Source of the DNA: Candidatus Methylomirabilis sp.
Lineage (GTDB): Bacteria > DYJV01
Length of the DNA stretch: 12,337 nt
NCBI GenBank assembly: GCA_020722945.1
Contig: DYJV01000050.1
Span: forward strand, 5,015-17,351
Direction of reading: 5' to 3'
A program made the position numbers and the translations under genes. Shown here piece after piece: positions 1,962 to 12,324 of the stretch. Position 1 is the stretch's first letter. Every line of letters starts with the position of its first letter. The notes below the pieces were generated by a model. It made no database searches. It saw only the letters and a list, made by a program, of their open reading frames with translations, and was not told where the DNA came from.

Positions 1962-2753
1962 TTATAATCGATCAATTAGAGTATCTATAAGAAACCTCGA
2001 TATACTTGTCGCAGGGGGTAAACCTGGCAAATGATCCTTGTGAAACCACCCCGCTTCTTCAAGCTCACATCTGTCAACTTTCAACTCACCAGCAGAGTAA
2101 TCTGCCAAAAACCCTATCATAATCTGATATGGAAATGGCCAAAATTGAGTTGTGATGTATTTCAAGTTATTTATCTCAATCCCTGTCTCTTCAAAAACCT
2201 CACGATTGACAGCCTCTTCAGCACTCTCTCCATACTCAATAAATCCTGCTACAACACCATATCTATTCCTCTGCCACTCCCTTTTCCTTGTAAGGAGAAT
2301 CTCTGGACCTTTTTTTACTCCAACTATCACAGCAGGATTTAAACGGGGGTAAACAGTAAAGCTACACTTACTACAAACCTTCGCTGTCTCTTTATTTGAA
2401 AATAGTAAACTTCCCCCACACTTACCACAGTAGATATTTTCACTATGCCATATCGAAAAAGATCTTGCAATCCCTGCAACTCCCCTACTCTCCTCATCAA
2501 TCTTTTCACTGATAATATTGAAAGAATCCTCCTCAAATAGAGAATCGTTTTCAATAAAAAAGAGATTCTCATTTTTATATTTACCAAAAAAAATTGCATC
2601 TTCTCGGATGCTCTTGACATCTTTATGAATTTTGAATCTGCTACCAGATAGCTCAATTATTGTAAAATTATCACCCGATATATTACTTTTTACAGTAGTA
2701 ATATGGAGATGTTTTATGAATTCTCTTGAAAATGGAAGATTGGGTAAGAGCAT
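1962..2753 (-). CDS. nudC: NudC, NADH pyrophosphatase / NAD-cap RNA hydrolase
   Basis: This 263-residue protein has the NudC architecture. NudC enzymes hydrolyse NADH to NMNH and AMP, and in E. coli also remove NAD caps from RNA 5' ends. Residues 1-100 are a poorly conserved NudC-type N-terminal domain. A complete four-cysteine zinc ribbon is formed by Cys109, Cys112, Cys127 and Cys130. The Nudix box runs from Gly170 to Ile192 and fits GX5EX7REUXEEXGU, with catalytic Glu185, Glu188 and Glu189. The NADH-diphosphatase signature after the box, normally SQPWPFPxS, reads TQFWPFPYQ at 202-210: the WPFP core is kept and the edges differ. E. coli NudC has 257 residues. No Shine-Dalgarno site precedes the ATG, and a promoter lies almost on top of it, so the message may be leaderless. 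Function is confident by family; the cap-removal role is not shown here. Confidence 0.9.
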   Translation of the reverse strand: MLLPNLPFSREFIKHLHITTVKSNISGDNFTIIELSGSRFKIHKDVKSIREDAIFFGKYKNENLFFIENDSLFEEDSFNIISEKIDEESRGVAGIARSFSIWHSENIYCGKCGGSLLFSNKETAKVCSKCSFTVYPRLNPAVIVGVKKGPEILLTRKREWQRNRYGVVAGFIEYGESAEEAVNREVFEETGIEINNLKYITTQFWPFPYQIMIGFLADYSAGELKVDRCELEEAGWFHKDHLPGLPPATSISRFLIDTLIDRL

Positions 2754-2759
2754 TTTGGA

Positions 2760-2788
2760 TAAATAACAAATAGATCTAATTTAGTCAA
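2760..2788 (-). promoter_or_regulatory. Candidate nudC promoter with almost no leader
   Basis: Minus-strand TTGACT at 2788-2783 matches the -35 consensus at five of six positions. A spacer of exactly 17 bases follows, then TATTTA at 2765-2760 as a fair -10 element. Only six bases separate the -10 element from the nudC ATG, so transcription should begin at or next to the start codon. The motif match is visible; promoter activity is inferred. Confidence 0.45.
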
Positions 2789-2927
2789 CATCAAATATAA
2801 CTATCTGATTTTAAACATTCTATTGAAAACAATTTATTGACTATCCAAAAATTAAATTTCCACTGATTAAAAACCTCTTTTGCTTTTATCTTCTTTTCTG
2901 TTCTAAAAACTATCAACTATTTTTTAC

Positions 2928-2996
2928 TTCCCTTCTACTCAAGGAAAATTGACCACCCCATCCAGCTTCGCTGTCCACCCCTTGAGTAGAGGGGAA
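2928..2996. repeat. Palindromic repeat, copy A (complete)
   Basis: Outer arms at 2928-2944 and 2980-2996 pair over 17 bases with one T/G wobble. They enclose a 29-base core at 2953-2981, made of CCACCCC, a short CAGC-TTC-GCTG hairpin and a second CCACCCC. A 5-bp alternative hairpin, CCCCT/AGGGG, can form from the end of the core and the right arm, so two structures compete. The flank at 2883-2927 shares words with the flank of copy C, including 15 identical bases (2905-2919 and 12242-12256). It resembles REP- or MITE-like intergenic repeats; no transposase is nearby. Confidence 0.85.
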
Positions 2997-3042
2997 TTTA
3001 CATTGGTTAGCAATATTGTCCATTATCAATTCAACATCCAAA

Positions 3043-3075
3043 ATTAATAATCCTATCGGCAGGTTTGAGATGACA
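3043..3075 (-). repeat. Second dispersed repeat, copy 1
   Basis: Read on the minus strand, this 33-base stretch matches plus-strand bases 11870-11902 at 28 of 33 positions, including the identical ends TGTCATCTCAAA and AGGATTATTAAT. The two copies are therefore inverted relative to each other and lie about 8.8 kb apart. Both sit close to a copy of the palindromic repeat. The form recalls the GTCAT-containing short intergenic repeats of many bacteria, but I cannot assign it to a named family. Confidence 0.7.
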
Positions 3076-3231
3076 AATATTTTTTTGAAATTACACAGAA
3101 GTGGCTCTGAGATTACAAAGGTTGGGATTTAAAGGTTTTTTAATTTGGTGGTTAACCTTTTGTGAGGTGTTTAAATACTCAGCAAAACTATAAAATAGTG
3201 TATTAAGATAGTAAAAATTGTGATTCGTAGC

Positions 3232-3262
3232 CTCTTTATAAAATAATTAAAGAGTCCTTTTT
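3232..3262 (+). terminator. Weak hairpin plus T run, plus strand
   Basis: CTCTTTA at 3232-3238 pairs with TAAAGAG at 3248-3254 around a nine-base loop, and a T-rich stretch follows at 3258-3262. It has terminator form for plus-strand transcription, but no plus-strand gene lies upstream. On the minus strand, which would serve the xdhC-family gene, no T run follows. It may be incidental in AT-rich DNA. Confidence 0.2.
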
Positions 3263-3286
3263 GACAAAGTTGTTTAGGGATTAGGT

Positions 3287-4204
3287 TTATAATTTTAAAT
3301 TTTTAGAATTTTTATTTTTTATAATTTCTGCAATTATGCTGACAGCTATCTCTGCTGGTGTTTCAGAGTTTATCTGAAGCCCTATTGGAGCATTTATCTT
3401 CTCAATACTCTCTTTTGTAAAACCTTTCTTGATAAGATTCTCCTTGACTGTCATCACTCTTTTCTTGCTACCAATCATCCCTATGTATTTGAACGGTTTA
3501 TTGAGAATTTGTGTAAGTATAACCTCGTCATGTGCATGCTCCCTTGTTACGAGGACAAAGAATGAGTTGTTAGTTGTTCTGATGTATTTGAGGATATTTG
3601 AAAAGTCAGAGAGGATAGTTGTATCTGCATCTGGAAATCTATCATCTGAAAGAAATTCCTCCCTATCATCATATATTATTACATTAAAATCACACAGTTT
3701 CCCCATCTTTGCAAGTGGAATAGCTATGTGCCCAGCACCAAATATATTTAATTCTGGAAGTGATTCTATTTTGTGGCAGTAGAAATTGTTATCTTCTATT
3801 AACTCTGATGTCAGTTTTTTTGAAAAATTATTTAACTCAACAGAGAGGAAAAAAGTTTCACCAGATAAAAATTTCTCGGTAAGGTTTGAGATAAGAAAAG
3901 AGTCCTTTTCTGATATATAAAGTTGTAAAACTGAAATTTTACCACCACACACAACAGCATCACCCAAAAAATTTTTCTCTGCTATGATGCTCTTTTTATC
4001 TTTTATTAAGGTAATACTTTCATTTATAAGGTCATTTTCAACAGGACCTCCGCCGATTGTCCCCTTTATTTCACCATCAGGTAACACAAGCATTACTGTG
4101 CTCACACCCCTTGGAGTAGAACCCTTTTTGTCTATGATTATGTTGAGCATTAACTCTCTTTTTTTAAAAAGAAGCTCACTCAACTCTTCCCATTGAAATT
4201 CCAT
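3287..4204 (-). CDS. XdhC/CoxF-family molybdoenzyme maturation protein
   Basis: This 305-residue protein has the two XdhC family domains. XdhC proteins bind molybdenum cofactor and prepare it for insertion into xanthine dehydrogenase-type hydroxylases; related proteins serve selenium-dependent molybdenum hydroxylases. The N-terminal domain shows GSTPRG at 28-33, GTIGGGPVE at 48-56 and the CGG motif at 86-88. The C-terminal Rossmann-like domain begins with FGAGHIAIPLAK at 155-166 and continues with IYDDRE (177-182), TREHAHDE (220-227), GMIGSKKR (242-249) and the closing INAPIGL region (270-276). AAGGA six bases before the ATG supports the start. It follows glmM by 12 bases as the last gene of the operon. 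No molybdenum hydroxylase subunit is in the window, so the client enzyme is unknown. The family is clear; a precise gene symbol would overreach. Confidence 0.85.
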   Translation of the reverse strand: MEFQWEELSELLFKKRELMLNIIIDKKGSTPRGVSTVMLVLPDGEIKGTIGGGPVENDLINESITLIKDKKSIIAEKNFLGDAVVCGGKISVLQLYISEKDSFLISNLTEKFLSGETFFLSVELNNFSKKLTSELIEDNNFYCHKIESLPELNIFGAGHIAIPLAKMGKLCDFNVIIYDDREEFLSDDRFPDADTTILSDFSNILKYIRTTNNSFFVLVTREHAHDEVILTQILNKPFKYIGMIGSKKRVMTVKENLIKKGFTKESIEKINAPIGLQINSETPAEIAVSIIAEIIKNKNSKNLKL

Positions 4205-4216
4205 ATTAAATCCTTT

Positions 4217-5572
4217 TTAGAATTTGTTTGTAAAAAAATCTCTCACTGTTTTCTCAAGGCTATCTATCATATTCCTTATTTTTGGTAGGTCATCACCCTC
4301 TATCATTATTCTAAGTTTCTTCTCTGTCCCTGAATACCTTATAAAGATTCTGCCTCGACCATCTAATGCTTTTTCATAGTCATTGATCTTTTTCTCTAAT
4401 CCTATAATTGCTTTTAGAGGAACTTTTTCAGGAACTTCTATATTTTTGAGTAGCTGTGGGAATTTGTTAAATATTTTTTTTAATTCACTTGCTTTTTTCT
4501 TCTCCCTTAACATTATTTTGATGAATTGCAAAGCTGTGAGTATCCCGTCACCAGTTGTATTAAAGTCTCTAAAAACAATATGTCCGGAAGGTTCACCGCC
4601 AAAATTGAGGTCTCCTTTTAACATCTGTTCTACAACATATCTGTCACCTACATCACTCTTGACAATATTTATTCCACTTTTTTCAAGAAATTTCTCAAGA
4701 CCGATATTGCTCATTGGCGTAAGGACAACAGTATTATTTTTGAGAGAGCCCTCCCTTTTCATAAAATCTGCTGCTGCTGCAATAATATGATCACCATCTA
4801 TCTCATCACCATTTTCATCAACTAATATACATCTATCGCCATCACCATCAAAGCTGATACCAAGGTCAGCTTCCCTTGAAATTACTGTAGCTCTTAATTT
4901 TCTGGTGTTTGTAGAGCCGCAAGCATCATTGATATTTGTCCCATTTGGTTCTACCCCGATAGAGATAACTTCCGCACCTAATTCATAAAAGACTTCTGGT
5001 GCTACCTTGTAAGTAGCACCATTTGCACAATCTATTACAATTTTGAGTTTTTTAAGATCTAAATTTCTTGGGAAAGTTGTTTTAAGATAAACAACATATC
5101 TCCCAATAGCATCATCTATCCTAAATGCTCTACCTATTTTTCTGGAGTCTGGAATTGCATCTTTAAAATTATTTTTTAGGATAAGATCCTCTATCTCGTT
5201 CTCAAGCTTATCAGGAAGCTTATAACCATCTGATGAGAATATTTTGATTCCATTATCCTCAAAAGGGTTGTGAGAAGCGGATATTACAACTCCTGCATCA
5301 ACTCTCATATTCCCGGTAAGAAAAGCTATCCCTGGAGTAGGGAGTGGTCCTACAAGGTAAGCATCGCCTCCCATAGAACATATTCCTGAAACAAGGGCAT
5401 TTTCAAGCATATAACCTGATAACCTTGTATCTTTACCTATTAAAATTTTCTGTTGTGAAGCATTTCTGAAGATAAGAGAGATTGCTTTGCCAAGTGATAA
5501 AACTATCTCACTTGTCATTGGATAGGTATTTGCCTTCCCCCGTATCCCATCAGTGCCAAATAGCTCTCTCAT
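4217..5572 (-). CDS. glmM: GlmM, phosphoglucosamine mutase
   Basis: GlmM converts glucosamine-6-phosphate to glucosamine-1-phosphate, which leads to UDP-GlcNAc for peptidoglycan and lipopolysaccharide. The protein has 451 residues, close to the usual 445-450. The phosphoserine loop ISASHNPFEDNGIK spans 97-110 with Ser100 as the catalytic residue. The metal-binding loop DGDGDR lies at 242-247, the sugar-binding GEPSGH at 326-331, and the phosphate-binding RYSGT at 412-416. The FGTDGIRG start is typical of GlmM as opposed to other phosphohexomutases. GGAG nine bases before the ATG supports initiation. It begins three bases after cdaR. The cdaA-cdaR-glmM order is conserved in many bacteria, and in Firmicutes GlmM binds and inhibits CdaA. 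All key residues are present. Confidence 0.96.
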   Translation of the reverse strand: MRELFGTDGIRGKANTYPMTSEIVLSLGKAISLIFRNASQQKILIGKDTRLSGYMLENALVSGICSMGGDAYLVGPLPTPGIAFLTGNMRVDAGVVISASHNPFEDNGIKIFSSDGYKLPDKLENEIEDLILKNNFKDAIPDSRKIGRAFRIDDAIGRYVVYLKTTFPRNLDLKKLKIVIDCANGATYKVAPEVFYELGAEVISIGVEPNGTNINDACGSTNTRKLRATVISREADLGISFDGDGDRCILVDENGDEIDGDHIIAAAADFMKREGSLKNNTVVLTPMSNIGLEKFLEKSGINIVKSDVGDRYVVEQMLKGDLNFGGEPSGHIVFRDFNTTGDGILTALQFIKIMLREKKKASELKKIFNKFPQLLKNIEVPEKVPLKAIIGLEKKINDYEKALDGRGRIFIRYSGTEKKLRIMIEGDDLPKIRNMIDSLEKTVRDFFTNKF

Positions 5573-6535: not shown

Positions 6536-7318
6536 CTATTTACTCTTATCTTTAGTTCCTATAAGGAGGTTTGTCAAAACTTTTTTGAGACTGTCAGCAT
6601 CAAGGTTTCTTGTCAACTTCCCATTGATTCCTACAGAGATGTTCCCTGTCTCTTCTGAGACTATCAGAGATATAGCATCTGTCTGCTCTGTTATCCCTAT
6701 TGCTGCTCTATGTCTTGTCCCTAATTGTTTGCTGATGTCAGGATTTATTGAGAGTGGGAGGAAACATCCTGCATATTTTATCCTATCGTTGACAATTACA
6801 ACTGCACCATCGTGAAGTGGTGATTTGTTGATAAAGAGACTTTCAAGAAGCTCCTTTGATGCAAATGCATCGAGCTCTTTCCCAATTTCTATAAGATTTT
6901 TGAGCCCTGTGGCTCTTGGAAAGACTATTAATGCACCTATTTTCTTGAAAGATAAAGTAACAGCAAGCTTGACTACTTCATCTATAATTTTTGTATCTGT
7001 AAATTGAATAGTCCCTTTTAGGAATATATCTTTCCCAAAATTTGATAGTGCAAGTCTAATATCGTGCTGAAAAATAACAACTATTATTACAAAGATAGAA
7101 CTGAGAAAATTATTGAGTATCCAATTTAGTGTGACTAATCCTAAAAAACTTGATATTTCGTAGAGTATAAAAAGGAATATAAATCCGATAATTATCTGAG
7201 CAGACCTTGTCCCTTTGATAAATAGTAAAATTCGATAGATGATAAAACTTACAATTGCAATATCGAGAAGATCTTCCCACCTGATGAAGTCTATTGTATA
7301 ATTTAGTAGTTCTCTCAA
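6536..7318 (-). CDS. cdaA: CdaA, membrane diadenylate cyclase (c-di-AMP synthase)
   Basis: CdaA condenses two ATP into cyclic di-AMP, a second messenger that controls potassium and osmolyte balance and cell-wall homeostasis. The 260-residue protein has three hydrophobic segments at about 17-34, 38-60 and 68-84, followed by a cytoplasmic DAC domain. The catalytic motifs are intact: DGA at 170-172, within SPLHDGAVVI, and RHRAA at 202-206, within LGTRHRAAIGI. Length is slightly below the usual 270-280 because the C-terminal tail is short. The start is TTG at 7318. It gives the family N-terminus and no other ATG, GTG or TTG lies in the first 20 codons, but the nearest purine run (GAGGGG) is 12 bases away. 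It begins three bases after the folP stop and ends immediately before cdaR. Confidence 0.93.
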   Translation of the reverse strand: MRELLNYTIDFIRWEDLLDIAIVSFIIYRILLFIKGTRSAQIIIGFIFLFILYEISSFLGLVTLNWILNNFLSSIFVIIVVIFQHDIRLALSNFGKDIFLKGTIQFTDTKIIDEVVKLAVTLSFKKIGALIVFPRATGLKNLIEIGKELDAFASKELLESLFINKSPLHDGAVVIVNDRIKYAGCFLPLSINPDISKQLGTRHRAAIGITEQTDAISLIVSEETGNISVGINGKLTRNLDADSLKKVLTNLLIGTKDKSK

Positions 7319-7321
7319 AAT

Positions 7322-8545
7322 CTAATCTATCCCCTCTTTTCTGATGCTGTCAACTATTTTGAGGGCTTCAACACTCTGTTGAACATCGTGTGTTCTTATA
7401 ATTTTGGCACCATTACTTGAGGCTATACAGGCAGAAGCAATTGAGCCGTTTATTCGATCTTTAGGAGTTGGTCTATTTAATATTTTGCCGATGAATGATT
7501 TCCTTGATGTCCCAATAAGTATTGGTAGTCCAAAAGATTTGAACTCTTTAAGGCGATTGAGTATCTCTAAATTATGAGTAAAGGTTTTCCCAAAACCTAT
7601 ACCGGGATCAATTATAAGATTTGATGGATCTCCGCCATGATCCTCTACATAAAGGATAATCTCTCTAAAATAATTAGATATTTCATTTATAAGATTGTGG
7701 TAAGTAGGATTTACTTGCATATTTGATGGGGTCCCTTTGATGTGCATTAGAATCGCAGGAACTTTATATTTAATAAGAAGATCAAACATATTGTTGTCAA
7801 ATTTTAGTGCTGAGATGTCGTTGATAATATCTGCTCCATGAATTAGAGCTTCCTCTGCCACCTTTGCTTTGTAAGTGTCAATTGATACAAATGAATCTGG
7901 AAACTCTCTCTTTATCAGAGTTATAAGTGGAATAACTCTTCGTAACTCTTCATCTACTGAAACATTCTCTGCACCCGGTCTTGTAGATTCCCCGCCAATA
8001 TCTATAAAATCTGCACCATCTTTTAGCATCTGCTCGACATGTTTGATAGCGGTATCTATATTAGTAAAATCCCCTCCGTCAGAGAATGAATCGGGAGTGG
8101 CATTGAGTATCCCCATAATGTAAGTTTTGTTTGGTAGAAGATGTATCTCTCTATCTTTTGATTTGAGGATAAAGGAATTTTTATTAAAATTGTCAATTAT
8201 TTTGAGAAGCTCACTGCCAAGGAATTTCATTGAAAATGGCTGAGCTTTTATCTTCATTGCAAATAATTTTAGTTGTTTGAGATTCCCGACAATTACAACA
8301 TTTGATCTTTCAACAGATATATCCAGAGCACCCCTTGCAACAGCAGCATCACCACCAACAGAGAGCATCTCCTGTTTGATAACATTTGCAACAACTGATT
8401 TGACGTTTTGTATCAGAATATTGTAAAAGATACCTTTATTGGATACCTTTGCCGCACCTATTTCAGTAGGATTTACCTGAATAAATATTTCATCCTTGAG
8501 AGAGCCAGAATCTACTGATAATATTCTTGAATTAAATTTATGCAC
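7322..8545 (-). CDS. folP: FolP, dihydropteroate synthase with N-terminal extension
   Basis: FolP joins para-aminobenzoate to dihydropterin pyrophosphate to form dihydropteroate in folate synthesis and is the sulfonamide target. The TIM-barrel part covers about residues 139-407, with [15 protein letters not shown] at 144-158, [10 protein letters not shown] at 182-191, a DPGIGFGKT loop, GTSRKSF, and the closing RTHDV. About 135 residues precede it, including [12 protein letters not shown] and QPFSMKFLG; a similar extension occurs in the roughly 400-residue FolP proteins of some other bacteria, and its role is not known to me. I prefer GTG at 8545 (407 residues) because AGGAGG lies nine bases upstream. 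The TTG at 8572 would place that site inside the coding region. The GTG overlaps the end of ftsH by eight bases. The catalytic assignment is firm. Confidence 0.93.
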
Positions 8546-10370
8546 TTGGAGCTGCCTCCTGCTGTTTACCAAAAATTATTTCATCAACTTCAATAGATGA
8601 AAGGGTTTCTTTTTCGAGTAGTGCATTGGCTAAATCGTGAAGCTTGGAGATGTTTTCGGATAATATATCTTTTGTTTTCTGGTAAGCACCCATAACAATA
8701 TTTCTAACTTCGTTGTCTATTTCGATAGCAGTTGTCTCACTGTAATCTTTGTGTCTGACAAGCTCTTTTCCAAGAAAAATCTGCTCCTCCTTCTTCCCAT
8801 AAGAGAGGGGACCCAACTTGCTCATACCCCATTCACAAACCATTTTTCTTGCAAGATCAGAAGCACGCTCTATATCGTTGCCTGCACCTGTTGTGATACT
8901 GTCAAACACAATCTCCTCAGCAACCCTTCCACCCATAAGTATTGATATCTGAGTGAGAAGATACTCTTTTTTGTATGTGTGTCTGTCATCTATTGGCAAC
9001 TGCTGAGTAACCCCCAATGCTCTACCTCTTGGGATTATAGTAACTTTATGAATAGGATCAGCTTCTGGGAGAAATCTTGCTACAAGAGTATGCCCACTTT
9101 CATGGTATGCTGTAATTTTCTTTTCATGGGGGTTAATAATCATGCTCCTTCTTGCTTTGCCAAGTAGAATTTTGTCTTTTGCCTCATCAAAATCAAGCAT
9201 TTCGATAGATTCTTTGTTTTTGCTTGCAGCGATCAATGCTGCTTCATTTACGAGGTTGGCAAGGTCAGCACCTGAAAAACCGGGTGTCCCTCTTGCTATT
9301 ATGGATAAATCAACACCCTCTGCCAAAGGCTTGTTTCTTGCGTGAACTTTGAGAATACCATCTCTACCGGTAAAATCAGGGTTGTTAACAATAACTTGCC
9401 TATCAAATCTTCCCGGTCTCAGAAGTGCCGGATCCAGAACATCTGGTCTATTGGTAGCTGCTACGATTATGACACCATCGTTTGATTCAAATCCGTCCAT
9501 CTCAACAAGAAGCTGGTTGAGTGTTTGTTCTCTTTCGTCGTGCCCTCCACCAAGACCTGCGCCACGATGTCTCCCTACTGCATCTATCTCATCAATAAAA
9601 ATTATACATGGAGCATTTTTCTTCCCTTGTATAAAAAGGTCTCTTACCCTTGCAGCACCAACTCCTACAAACATTTCAACAAAATCAGAACCACTTATGC
9701 TAAAAAATGGGACATCTGCTTCACCTGCTATTGCTTTGGCAAGTAAAGTTTTGCCGGTGCCGGGAGGACCTACGAGGAGTGCTCCTTTGGGAATTTTGCC
9801 GCCTAATTTGGTGAATTTCTTGGGATTTTTGAGGAATTCTATTATTTCACCAACTTCCTCCTTCGCCTCGTCAATCCCTGCAACATCTTTAAAGGTAACT
9901 TTGTTTTCAGATTCGCTCAACAGACGGGCTCTACTTTTACCAAAAGAGAAAGCTTTGCCACTCCCACCTGCCATATTACGCATAAAAAATATCCATACTC
10001 CTATCAGAAGGAGCATAGGAAACCATGAAACAAGTATAGACTGCCATAAAGAATTTTTGTCGTTAGGTTTGACTTTTATAAGGACATTGTTATCTTTGAG
10101 AATATCCATCAGCTTCAGATCTGGAGCAATATAGCATAGATACTCTTTGGTATCGAAAGTTTTGAGGAATAATTTGTCACCTTGTATTGTAACACTCTCA
10201 GCTTTGCCATTTTTGACCATACCAAGAAAATCGGAATATGTTATCTCATTTGTGACAGTAGGATTATTAAAAGCATTAAAAACCATTATTACAACAAGGA
10301 CTATTACAAGCCAGAGAGAGAGATTTTTAAAAAAATTGTTCTGTTCGGGATTTTTATTTGGTTTGTTAAT
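8538..10370 (-). CDS. ftsH: FtsH, ATP-dependent membrane zinc metalloprotease
   Basis: FtsH extracts and degrades damaged or regulatory membrane and cytoplasmic proteins as an ATP-driven hexamer in the inner membrane. Numbered from the AUU start (610 residues), the membrane segments are at about 19-34 and 116-130, with a short periplasmic domain between. Walker A GPPGTGKT is at 201-208, Walker B IIFIDEID at 256-263, and the second region of homology, ending RPGRFDR, at 306-324. Zinc motif HESGH is at 423-427, and the third ligand region TTGAGND is at 493-499. A perfect TAAGGAGG lies six bases before ATT at 10370. No ATG, GTG or TTG lies in frame between there and Met42 of the longer frame, which is inside the first membrane helix. 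A GTG at 10409 would give 623 residues but has no ribosome site. The AUU start is inferred; protein identity is certain. Confidence 0.95.
8555..8560 (-). promoter_or_regulatory. folP Shine-Dalgarno site inside the end of ftsH
   Basis: Minus-strand AGGAGG lies inside the last ftsH codons, nine bases before GTG 8545. The GTG and the ftsH stop form GTGCATAA, so terminating ribosomes can restart at folP. This favours the 407-residue FolP over the TTG start at 8572. Confidence 0.6.
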
Positions 10371-10376
10371 TGGACT

Positions 10377-10384
10377 CCTCCTTA
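10377..10384 (-). promoter_or_regulatory. Strong Shine-Dalgarno site for an AUU start of ftsH
   Basis: Minus-strand TAAGGAGG at 10384-10377 is a perfect anti-16S match. It is followed by AGTCCA and then ATT at 10370. This is the strongest ribosome site in the window, and the only codon at the right distance is AUU. Confidence 0.7.
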
Positions 10385-10424
10385 ATATAATTTTAAGATT
10401 TTTTACCACATTACTTTGCTTTAT

Positions 10425-11804
10425 TCAATAAAAATCAATTTCTGTTTTTAAATAATTTTTGCTCTCCTTTGAAATTTTTACCTTTTCACTTATTCTGTGT
10501 CCTACTACCCAAACAATCTCTCCACTTGAATCCACCAAAAGTGGAATCTCTCGCCTTTTTCTTAATGGAATTTTGCTGTTGATAAAGAAATCTTTTAGTT
10601 TCTTTGGAGAGCCTATCCCTAATGGCTGGAATCTCTCTCCACCTTTGTAGTATCTTATTTCAAGAGGGAGTAGTAACTTCTCAAAATCGAAAAATTCTGT
10701 CAGATGACCCTTCTCTGATAGTTGCGGATAGGAATCAACACTCTCAATTTTGAGCCTGAAATTTTTGAAAGCATACTCCCCAATTCCTGTTATTAGAGAG
10801 GTTTGGGTGGGGCTACCATCTATATTTTTACTATTTTTAAGCGAAATAAATATATTGTCATACTCTTTGTAAAATTGTATCTTTTGGAAGGTAAATACCC
10901 CTTTTGAGCTATGTATAAATTTGTCAAGCTCTGTAAGAACTGACAATCTGTAATTGTAATTGTTAAAGTGGGCAAATATCTTTTTGTAAATTTCAAATCT
11001 GATAAATCTATTCATAGGAAGTTGTTTGTAGAGAAGGTTGTAACCGTTATTATTTGGAGAAATTATTTTATCAAAGATAGATGAGACGCTATCTTCTATA
11101 AATTCTGATAGCTCCCCTATATTTTGAGAGAAATTGGATATATGTTTCTCAAAAGCAGGTGAAAAATTCTCTGATATGAATGGGATTAGTATATTTCTGA
11201 TTCGGTTTCTAAGGTAGTAGTTTTTTCTGTTTGAAGAATCTTCGACAAATTGTGTCTGACTCTCTTTTAAATATTGTAGTATCTCTAATTTTTTAAATGT
11301 GATAATTGGTCTGATGATATTTGAAAATTTTAACTTTATCCCTTCAAAAGCAGTTATCCCTCTTCCTCGAAAAAGTGAGATGAAAAAATTTTCGATCTGG
11401 TCATCAAAGTTGTGAGCAGTGGCAATTTTGTCGTAACCATTTTCCGATGAAATCTTTTTAAGTAATTGGTATCGCAACAACCTCCCACCTGCTTCAATGC
11501 TCATTTTATTCTCAATGGAAAAATTCTTTACATTTAAGGTTTCTGAAAAGATTCTGATATTATGCTTTTTTGCCACAGAGTGTGAAAATATCTGGTCACG
11601 AGTGCTCTCATCCCCACGCAGAGAGTGATTGAGGTGAAACAGTGCAATATCTTTTATATTTAATTTTTTTTTAAAAAGGGTGAGCATTGTCAGGAGAAAA
11701 ATAGAGTCAGCACCTCCTGAAAATGAGACAAGTATAGATTCACCACTCTTGATCAGGTTGTTATTTTTGATAAAGTTTAAAAATTTCTCTTCTATTTTAT
11801 TCAT
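10425..11804 (-). CDS. tilS: TilS, tRNA(Ile)-lysidine synthetase
   Basis: TilS uses ATP and lysine to convert cytidine 34 of the CAU-anticodon isoleucine tRNA to lysidine, so that AUA is read as isoleucine; it is essential in most bacteria. The N-type ATP pyrophosphatase domain starts with the PP-loop SGGADS at 29-34, followed by HLNHSLRGDES and the TAHNFDDQIENF region with His131. The C-terminal substrate-binding domain ends with GERFQPLG, KLKDFFINSKIPLRKR and WVVGHRISEKV, all typical of full-length TilS. ATG at 11804 gives 459 residues and the usual MNKIEEKFLNFI start. TTG at 11816 would add four residues, and neither has a well-spaced ribosome site, so the start is uncertain by four codons. 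It is the first gene of the operon, 54 bases before the AUU of ftsH. AUA codons are common in this AT-rich DNA, which makes TilS especially needed. Confidence 0.95.
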   Translation of the reverse strand: MNKIEEKFLNFIKNNNLIKSGESILVSFSGGADSIFLLTMLTLFKKKLNIKDIALFHLNHSLRGDESTRDQIFSHSVAKKHNIRIFSETLNVKNFSIENKMSIEAGGRLLRYQLLKKISSENGYDKIATAHNFDDQIENFFISLFRGRGITAFEGIKLKFSNIIRPIITFKKLEILQYLKESQTQFVEDSSNRKNYYLRNRIRNILIPFISENFSPAFEKHISNFSQNIGELSEFIEDSVSSIFDKIISPNNNGYNLLYKQLPMNRFIRFEIYKKIFAHFNNYNYRLSVLTELDKFIHSSKGVFTFQKIQFYKEYDNIFISLKNSKNIDGSPTQTSLITGIGEYAFKNFRLKIESVDSYPQLSEKGHLTEFFDFEKLLLPLEIRYYKGGERFQPLGIGSPKKLKDFFINSKIPLRKRREIPLLVDSSGEIVWVVGHRISEKVKISKESKNYLKTEIDFY

Positions 11805-11869
11805 CTCTTTAAACAAACACCAACTTAAAAAAAATTCTCAATTTCAATCTCTGTTTTCAAACAAACCTC

Positions 11870-12096: not shown

Positions 12097-12172
12097 CCTT
12101 GATGAGGGGAATTAAAAAAATAACCACCCCGTCAGGCTCTGCTGTCCACCCCTCCGTAGAGGGGAATTTTTT
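12097..12172. repeat. Palindromic repeat, copy B (rearranged left arm)
   Basis: The 29-base core at 12124-12152 keeps both CCACCCC boxes at the same spacing and agrees with copy C at 25 of 29 positions. To its right, CCCCTC (12149-12154) and GAGGGG (12159-12164) form a 6-bp hairpin followed by AATTTTTT, which has terminator form on the plus strand. The left side is not the expected arm: it reads CCTTGATGAGGGGAATT (12097-12113), which resembles the right arm of copy A, so GAGGGGAATT occurs on both sides of the core at an offset of 55. Confidence 0.75.
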
Positions 12173-12270: not shown

Positions 12271-12324
12271 TTCCCATCTACACAAGGATAATTGACCACC
12301 CCGTCCAGCTTCGCTGTCCACCCC
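12271..12324. repeat. Palindromic repeat, copy C (right arm missing)
   Basis: The left arm at 12271-12287 and the 29-base core at 12296-12324 are nearly the same as in copy A; the cores differ at one position only. The right arm expected after the second CCACCCC is absent and replaced by AGAAGAACAGGCG up to the window edge. The flank at 12213-12270 shares several words with that of copy A, including 15 identical bases, so homology extends about 50 bases beyond the palindrome. Confidence 0.8.

Follow-up and report, generated by a model that had tools for sequence, protein, structure and literature searches.

Initiation factor IF3 discriminates against start codons that are not AUG, GUG or UUG, and to our knowledge very few chromosomal genes start at AUU. 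Two such genes of E. coli are cited in PMC1780047, infC, which is autoregulated by IF3 through its AUU codon, and pcnB, the expression of which is limited by its AUU start. Three genes of S. aureus, infC (AUA), cvfC1 (AUU) and ccpN (AUA), have noncanonical starts with extended Shine-Dalgarno (SD) sequences, and reporters of cvfC1, ccpN and citZ yielded about 10% of the AUG output in poor medium (PMC13009471). The sigR gene of Streptomyces has a GTC start and is repressed by IF3 (PMC5472188). For ftsH of E. coli, ribosome profiling and lacZ fusions identified a UUG start (PMC4909307). Among the papers searched, none joins FtsH with the phrase "AUU start codon" or with "rare start codon".

The analysed window is a stretch of 12,337 nucleotides (contig C83, 5015-17351) from an assembly of Candidatus Methylomirabilis sp. 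(G000; 2.51 Mb, 184 contigs, 98% complete). The gene order on its minus strand is tilS, ftsH, folP, cdaA, a YbbR-like gene and glmM, and all of these identities are backed by curated models, the YbbR-like gene being the exception. The ftsH product belongs to the family described by NCBIfam TIGR01241 (866.8 bits, cut-off 600) and its translation contains the GPPGTGKT (AAA) and HESGH (zinc-protease) motifs. The stop codon of tilS (TGA, 10427-10425) closes the ftsH frame upstream, and the ftsH frame opens just past it (Table 1). In the AT-rich, gene-poor end of the window, a GC-richer segment (accaccccgtc...ctgtccacccc) is present twice in similar form (12122-12155 and 12293-12324) and may be a dispersed repeat. 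At another locus (L200:5240-5500), short TATGGAGGTATATTATA was seen on either side of an assembly N run, directly ahead of a gene start.

Table 1. Coordinates of ftsH, its neighbours and its start region in the window.
Feature	Position	Strand	Remarks
tilS	10425..11816	minus	TIGR02432, 172 bits; upstream of ftsH, same order in G001
ftsH coding region read from ATT	8538..10370	minus	610 codons and stop; NCBIfam TIGR01241
folP-type dihydropteroate synthase gene	7322..8572	minus	TIGR01496, 326 bits; next downstream of ftsH; start approximate
GTG	10409-10407	minus	no other ATG/GTG/TTG in frame between the tilS stop and helix 1; rejected as the start
SD TAAGGAGG	10384-10377	minus	predicted duplex with GAUCACCUCCUUA of -12.6 kcal/mol (G001, -11.6), calculated with an assumed anti-SD tail
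Spacer AGTCCA	10376-10371	minus	six bases; AAAGCT in G001, of equal length
ATT, putative ftsH initiation codon	10370-10368	minus	six bases past the strongest SD; same ATT in G001

In the ftsH frame, the minus strand reads ATA AAG CAA AGT AAT GTG GTA AAA AAT CTT AAA ATT ATA TTA AGG AGG AGT CCA ATT AAC AAA CCA. An earlier note on this DNA had claimed that the best SD of the window stands six bases before this ATT and that no usable ATG, GTG or TTG is present in frame. Both claims hold: the SD and the spacer were found where expected, and the only canonical codon before helix 1, the GTG at 10409, has no SD of its own, the first ATG after it lying within transmembrane helix 1. Within the window's minus strand, TAAGGAGG occurs once, as the SD of ftsH; the plus strand has one further copy, at 6562, which falls in the cdaA region and precedes no gene. 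The initiation region of ftsH is weakly folded (-2.7 kcal/mol vs the genome mean of -6.6), being less structured than about 93% of genes. The 16S rRNA gene, sought for the anti-SD and for a lineage check, was not found in the assemblies of G000 or G001.

The comparison within the phylum comprised two genomes, G000 and G001, both of them fragmented drafts and belonging to the same order and to different families. At the same place of ftsH, G001 (contig C391, locus L037) has AAA AGG AGG AAA GCT ATT AAC GGA AAA, that is, AAGGAGG, six bases and ATT AAC, and its FtsH is about 80% identical to that of G000. The 23 codons from the upstream stop to this ATT include no ATG, GTG, TTG or CTG, and the first such codon after the ATT falls in the first transmembrane helix (MVFNAF); among the examined ftsH loci with a complete 5' region, G001 is the only one without a canonical start in the N-terminal frame. 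Alignment of the upstream regions has shown that the extensions are unrelated, while AGGAGG, the spacer length and ATTAAC are shared, and that both proteins continue after ATTAAC with the common N-terminal segment NNF-KN-SLWLVI. The pattern AAGGAGG-N6-ATTAAC is thus kept despite diverged spacer and upstream sequences. The N-terminus of a relative, which the earlier note had named as the test of an AUU start, supports this start more strongly than the note foresaw: G001 has AUU itself and not ATG, its SD and spacing are unchanged, and no canonical codon could serve instead. In both genomes, ATT stands at an SD-appropriate spacing with no usable canonical codon, and the arrangement is conserved in the single relative compared. 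Since the G001 site and the alignment conserve SD-N6-ATTAAC and not the extensions, chance, a sequencing error and a GTG start are all improbable, and conserved AUU initiation of ftsH in both genomes is very likely.

We compared the occurrence of AAGGAGG-N5..7-ATT with a reversed control. The pattern was not enriched in either G000 (19 vs 23) or G001 (17 vs 34), so isolated matches would mean nothing, and general use of AUU in G000 was rejected. Inspection of 15 of the 19 matches in G000 and 15 of the 17 in G001 identified, besides ftsH, only one start-like site, in a DctM-like transporter gene of G001 (L133, contig C276). There AAGGAGG is followed by ATT ATA, with no ATG, GTG or TTG until codon 11, and the gene probably starts at AUU or AUA. 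The putative ftsH sites are set apart from isolated matches by frame, position and conservation.

The frequency of noncanonical starts was estimated from 1.39 Mb of the 2.51 Mb of G000 (992 gene models) with a filter for noncanonical start codons that stand behind a strong SD close to the 5' end of a gene. Four matches were convincing, namely ftsH, an RND-type exporter and a LacI-type regulator, all with ATT, and infC with ATA; the remaining ones were inside genes or had a canonical start nearby. The filter also recovered prfB (L215, reverse strand around 176), which has its usual in-frame stop and site of programmed +1 frameshifting; this recovery serves as a sanity check. AUU starts are therefore rare in G000, with ftsH and two weaker candidates among the 992 gene models, and are no general habit. 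The RND-type exporter gene (L181, reverse-strand ORF 2727-5247) has a likely AUU start behind AGGAGG at a spacing of 8, and its homologue in G001 has ATG within one codon of this ATT. In the gene of the LacI-type regulator (L253, reverse-strand ORF 18923-19940) the sole SD, GGAGGTGA, points to ATT at a spacing of 8, with no canonical start within usable distance. The infC gene of G000 (L123, G000:C41:23596-24096, minus strand) begins at AUA behind AGGAGGTG, and its frame has no canonical start ahead of an internal ATG. Its product belongs to the IF3 family (TIGR00168, 231.7 bits), which demonstrates that G000 has this factor; infC was not found in the G001 assembly. In G000, the SDs of UUG and GUG genes are no stronger than those of AUG genes, and genome-wide compensation of weak codons by stronger SDs was therefore rejected.

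In 386 genomes, GGAGG-N4..8-ATH ahead of the FtsH N-terminal motif, a pattern that demands an exact GGAGG and would miss weaker sites, matched 15 times, and only the matches in G000 and G001 were FtsH; AUU, AUA or AUC starts of ftsH behind an exact GGAGG were found in none of the other genomes searched. In related loci, the SD-supported starts of ftsH were UUG in 59, AUG in 14 and GUG in 10 cases (UUG, 59/83), whereas those of other genes in the same loci were UUG in 28, AUG in 105 and GUG in 28 cases (UUG, 28/161). This excess of UUG (odds ratio 11.7, P 1.6e-16, without correction for relatedness) is a trend and not a precise rate, as the start-picking rule was simple and related loci are not independent. 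UUG also prevailed in 29 loci from separate families (SD-supported ftsH starts: UUG 14, AUG 4, GUG 2) and in ftsH loci with one possible canonical codon (UUG 27, AUG 15, GUG 7). The codon ahead of the conserved N-x-F-Y-K-N was ATG, GTG or TTG in all 34 loci, and almost all of the N-Q-F-Y-K-N matches listed for another set, of 77 genomes, follow a codon ending in TG. This would be expected at a start but not for a leucine. UUG is the main start codon of ftsH in Desulfobacterota and other groups (loci L008-L118) and is much rarer among the neighbouring genes. From the UUG excess it follows that weak starts are frequent in ftsH, not that the AUU is regulated. Judging from the sequences, the AUU of ftsH looks like the extreme of this trend.

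Could the AUU be real but neutral, having drifted from AUG or UUG and being tolerated by the strong SD without any regulatory role? The other isolated AUU candidates in G000, the RND-type gene (AUG in G001) and the LacI-type regulator, agree with this explanation, which nevertheless seems less likely to us, as the AUU of ftsH has been kept in two families whose FtsH proteins differ by about 20%, and as weak starts prevail in related ftsH genes. Taken together, these two observations suggest selection for low initiation.

A start at the GTG, perhaps by reinitiation after tilS, with the SD-like sequence being internal coding sequence, is quite unlikely. GTG is a normal start codon in an open frame, and the tilS stop is only about 15 bases upstream of it, so that coupling without an SD could occur. 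However, this GTG lacks an SD, and the matching frame of G001 contains no ATG, GTG or TTG and encodes an unrelated extension. Moreover, if this GTG were used, the SD would fall in codons 9-11, as had been pointed out before, and the stretch SD-N6-ATT, which is conserved, would be mere codons 9-14. Residues conserved between the GTG and the ATT would have argued for it, but the 13-codon extension is not conserved and the GTG is absent from G001; this start was rejected.

Very improbable is entry into the ftsH frame by a frameshift with the SD as a stimulator, as in prfB. In both genomes there is a TAA in another frame at this site (ATTAAC), but by inspection no plausible overlapping frame reaches the site in either of them, and upstream ATGs in other frames are closed within a few codons. 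The prfB gene of G000 has its usual frameshift site with upstream coding sequence, unlike ftsH, and frameshift entry was rejected for want of an overlapping frame. The least credible explanation is an ATG misread in sequencing or assembly: although G000 and G001 are both drafts, they were assembled separately and have diverged, and each has ATT at this codon, which makes a point error very unlikely.

We therefore return to translation of ftsH from the AUU at 10370, with an output that would be low and IF3-sensitive, as the extreme of a weak-start habit, and assign to this explanation as a whole a probability of roughly 0.85. The near-complete SD, the six-base spacing and the almost unstructured leader would place the 30S subunit on the AUU. 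The initiator tRNA would pair imperfectly with this codon, FtsH still beginning with formyl-methionine (the expected N-terminus is fMet-Asn-Lys-Pro-Asn-Lys), and the strong SD together with the open leader would make the AUU usable. Because IF3 rejects initiation complexes of the AUU type, FtsH output may be reduced to a fraction of the AUG level and may rise when IF3 is scarce, as with infC of E. coli. Lower, IF3-sensitive FtsH production from AUU, as we infer it, is consistent with the AUA of infC in G000 and with the published AUU, AUA and GUC cases. The likely purpose would be to keep the FtsH protease low relative to the products of surrounding genes, and the conservation of the AUU suggests that translation is the step at which its production is deliberately held down. 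More tentatively, many bacteria could be under selection for weak initiation of ftsH, as with the UUG of E. coli and of Desulfobacterota. The AUU of this phylum could then couple the amount of this essential quality-control protease to the activity of IF3, and with it membrane proteolysis to the state of the translation machinery.

The ftsH start adds to the known, small class of natural AUU starts a putative case that is conserved across families and concerns an essential protease. Annotation restricted to ATG, GTG and TTG would misplace the FtsH start in G000 and cut into the first helix in G001. That ftsH tends towards weak start codons is a point beyond the AUU itself, and the bias leads to a testable general claim, namely that FtsH dosage is limited at translation initiation.

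Among the described systems, infC of E. coli resembles ftsH in that AUU is read with an SD, and infC of G000 is noncanonical as well, with AUA, the codon also reported for infC of S. aureus. However, FtsH is no initiation factor, so control would be one-way, without feedback. The pcnB gene of E. coli likewise starts at AUU, which limits its expression, but it is an unrelated gene, and the AUU of ftsH is found in a different phylum. With cvfC1 and ccpN of S. aureus, ftsH shares a conserved noncanonical start with an extended SD; those genes are also unrelated, and their low output was found experimentally in S. aureus. The protein level of Streptomyces sigR is set by a noncanonical start, as may be the case here, but the codon is GUC rather than AUU and the effect is experimentally proven. 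Closest by gene is ftsH of E. coli with its weak UUG start, although UUG is a canonical minor start that does not meet the discrimination seen with AUU.
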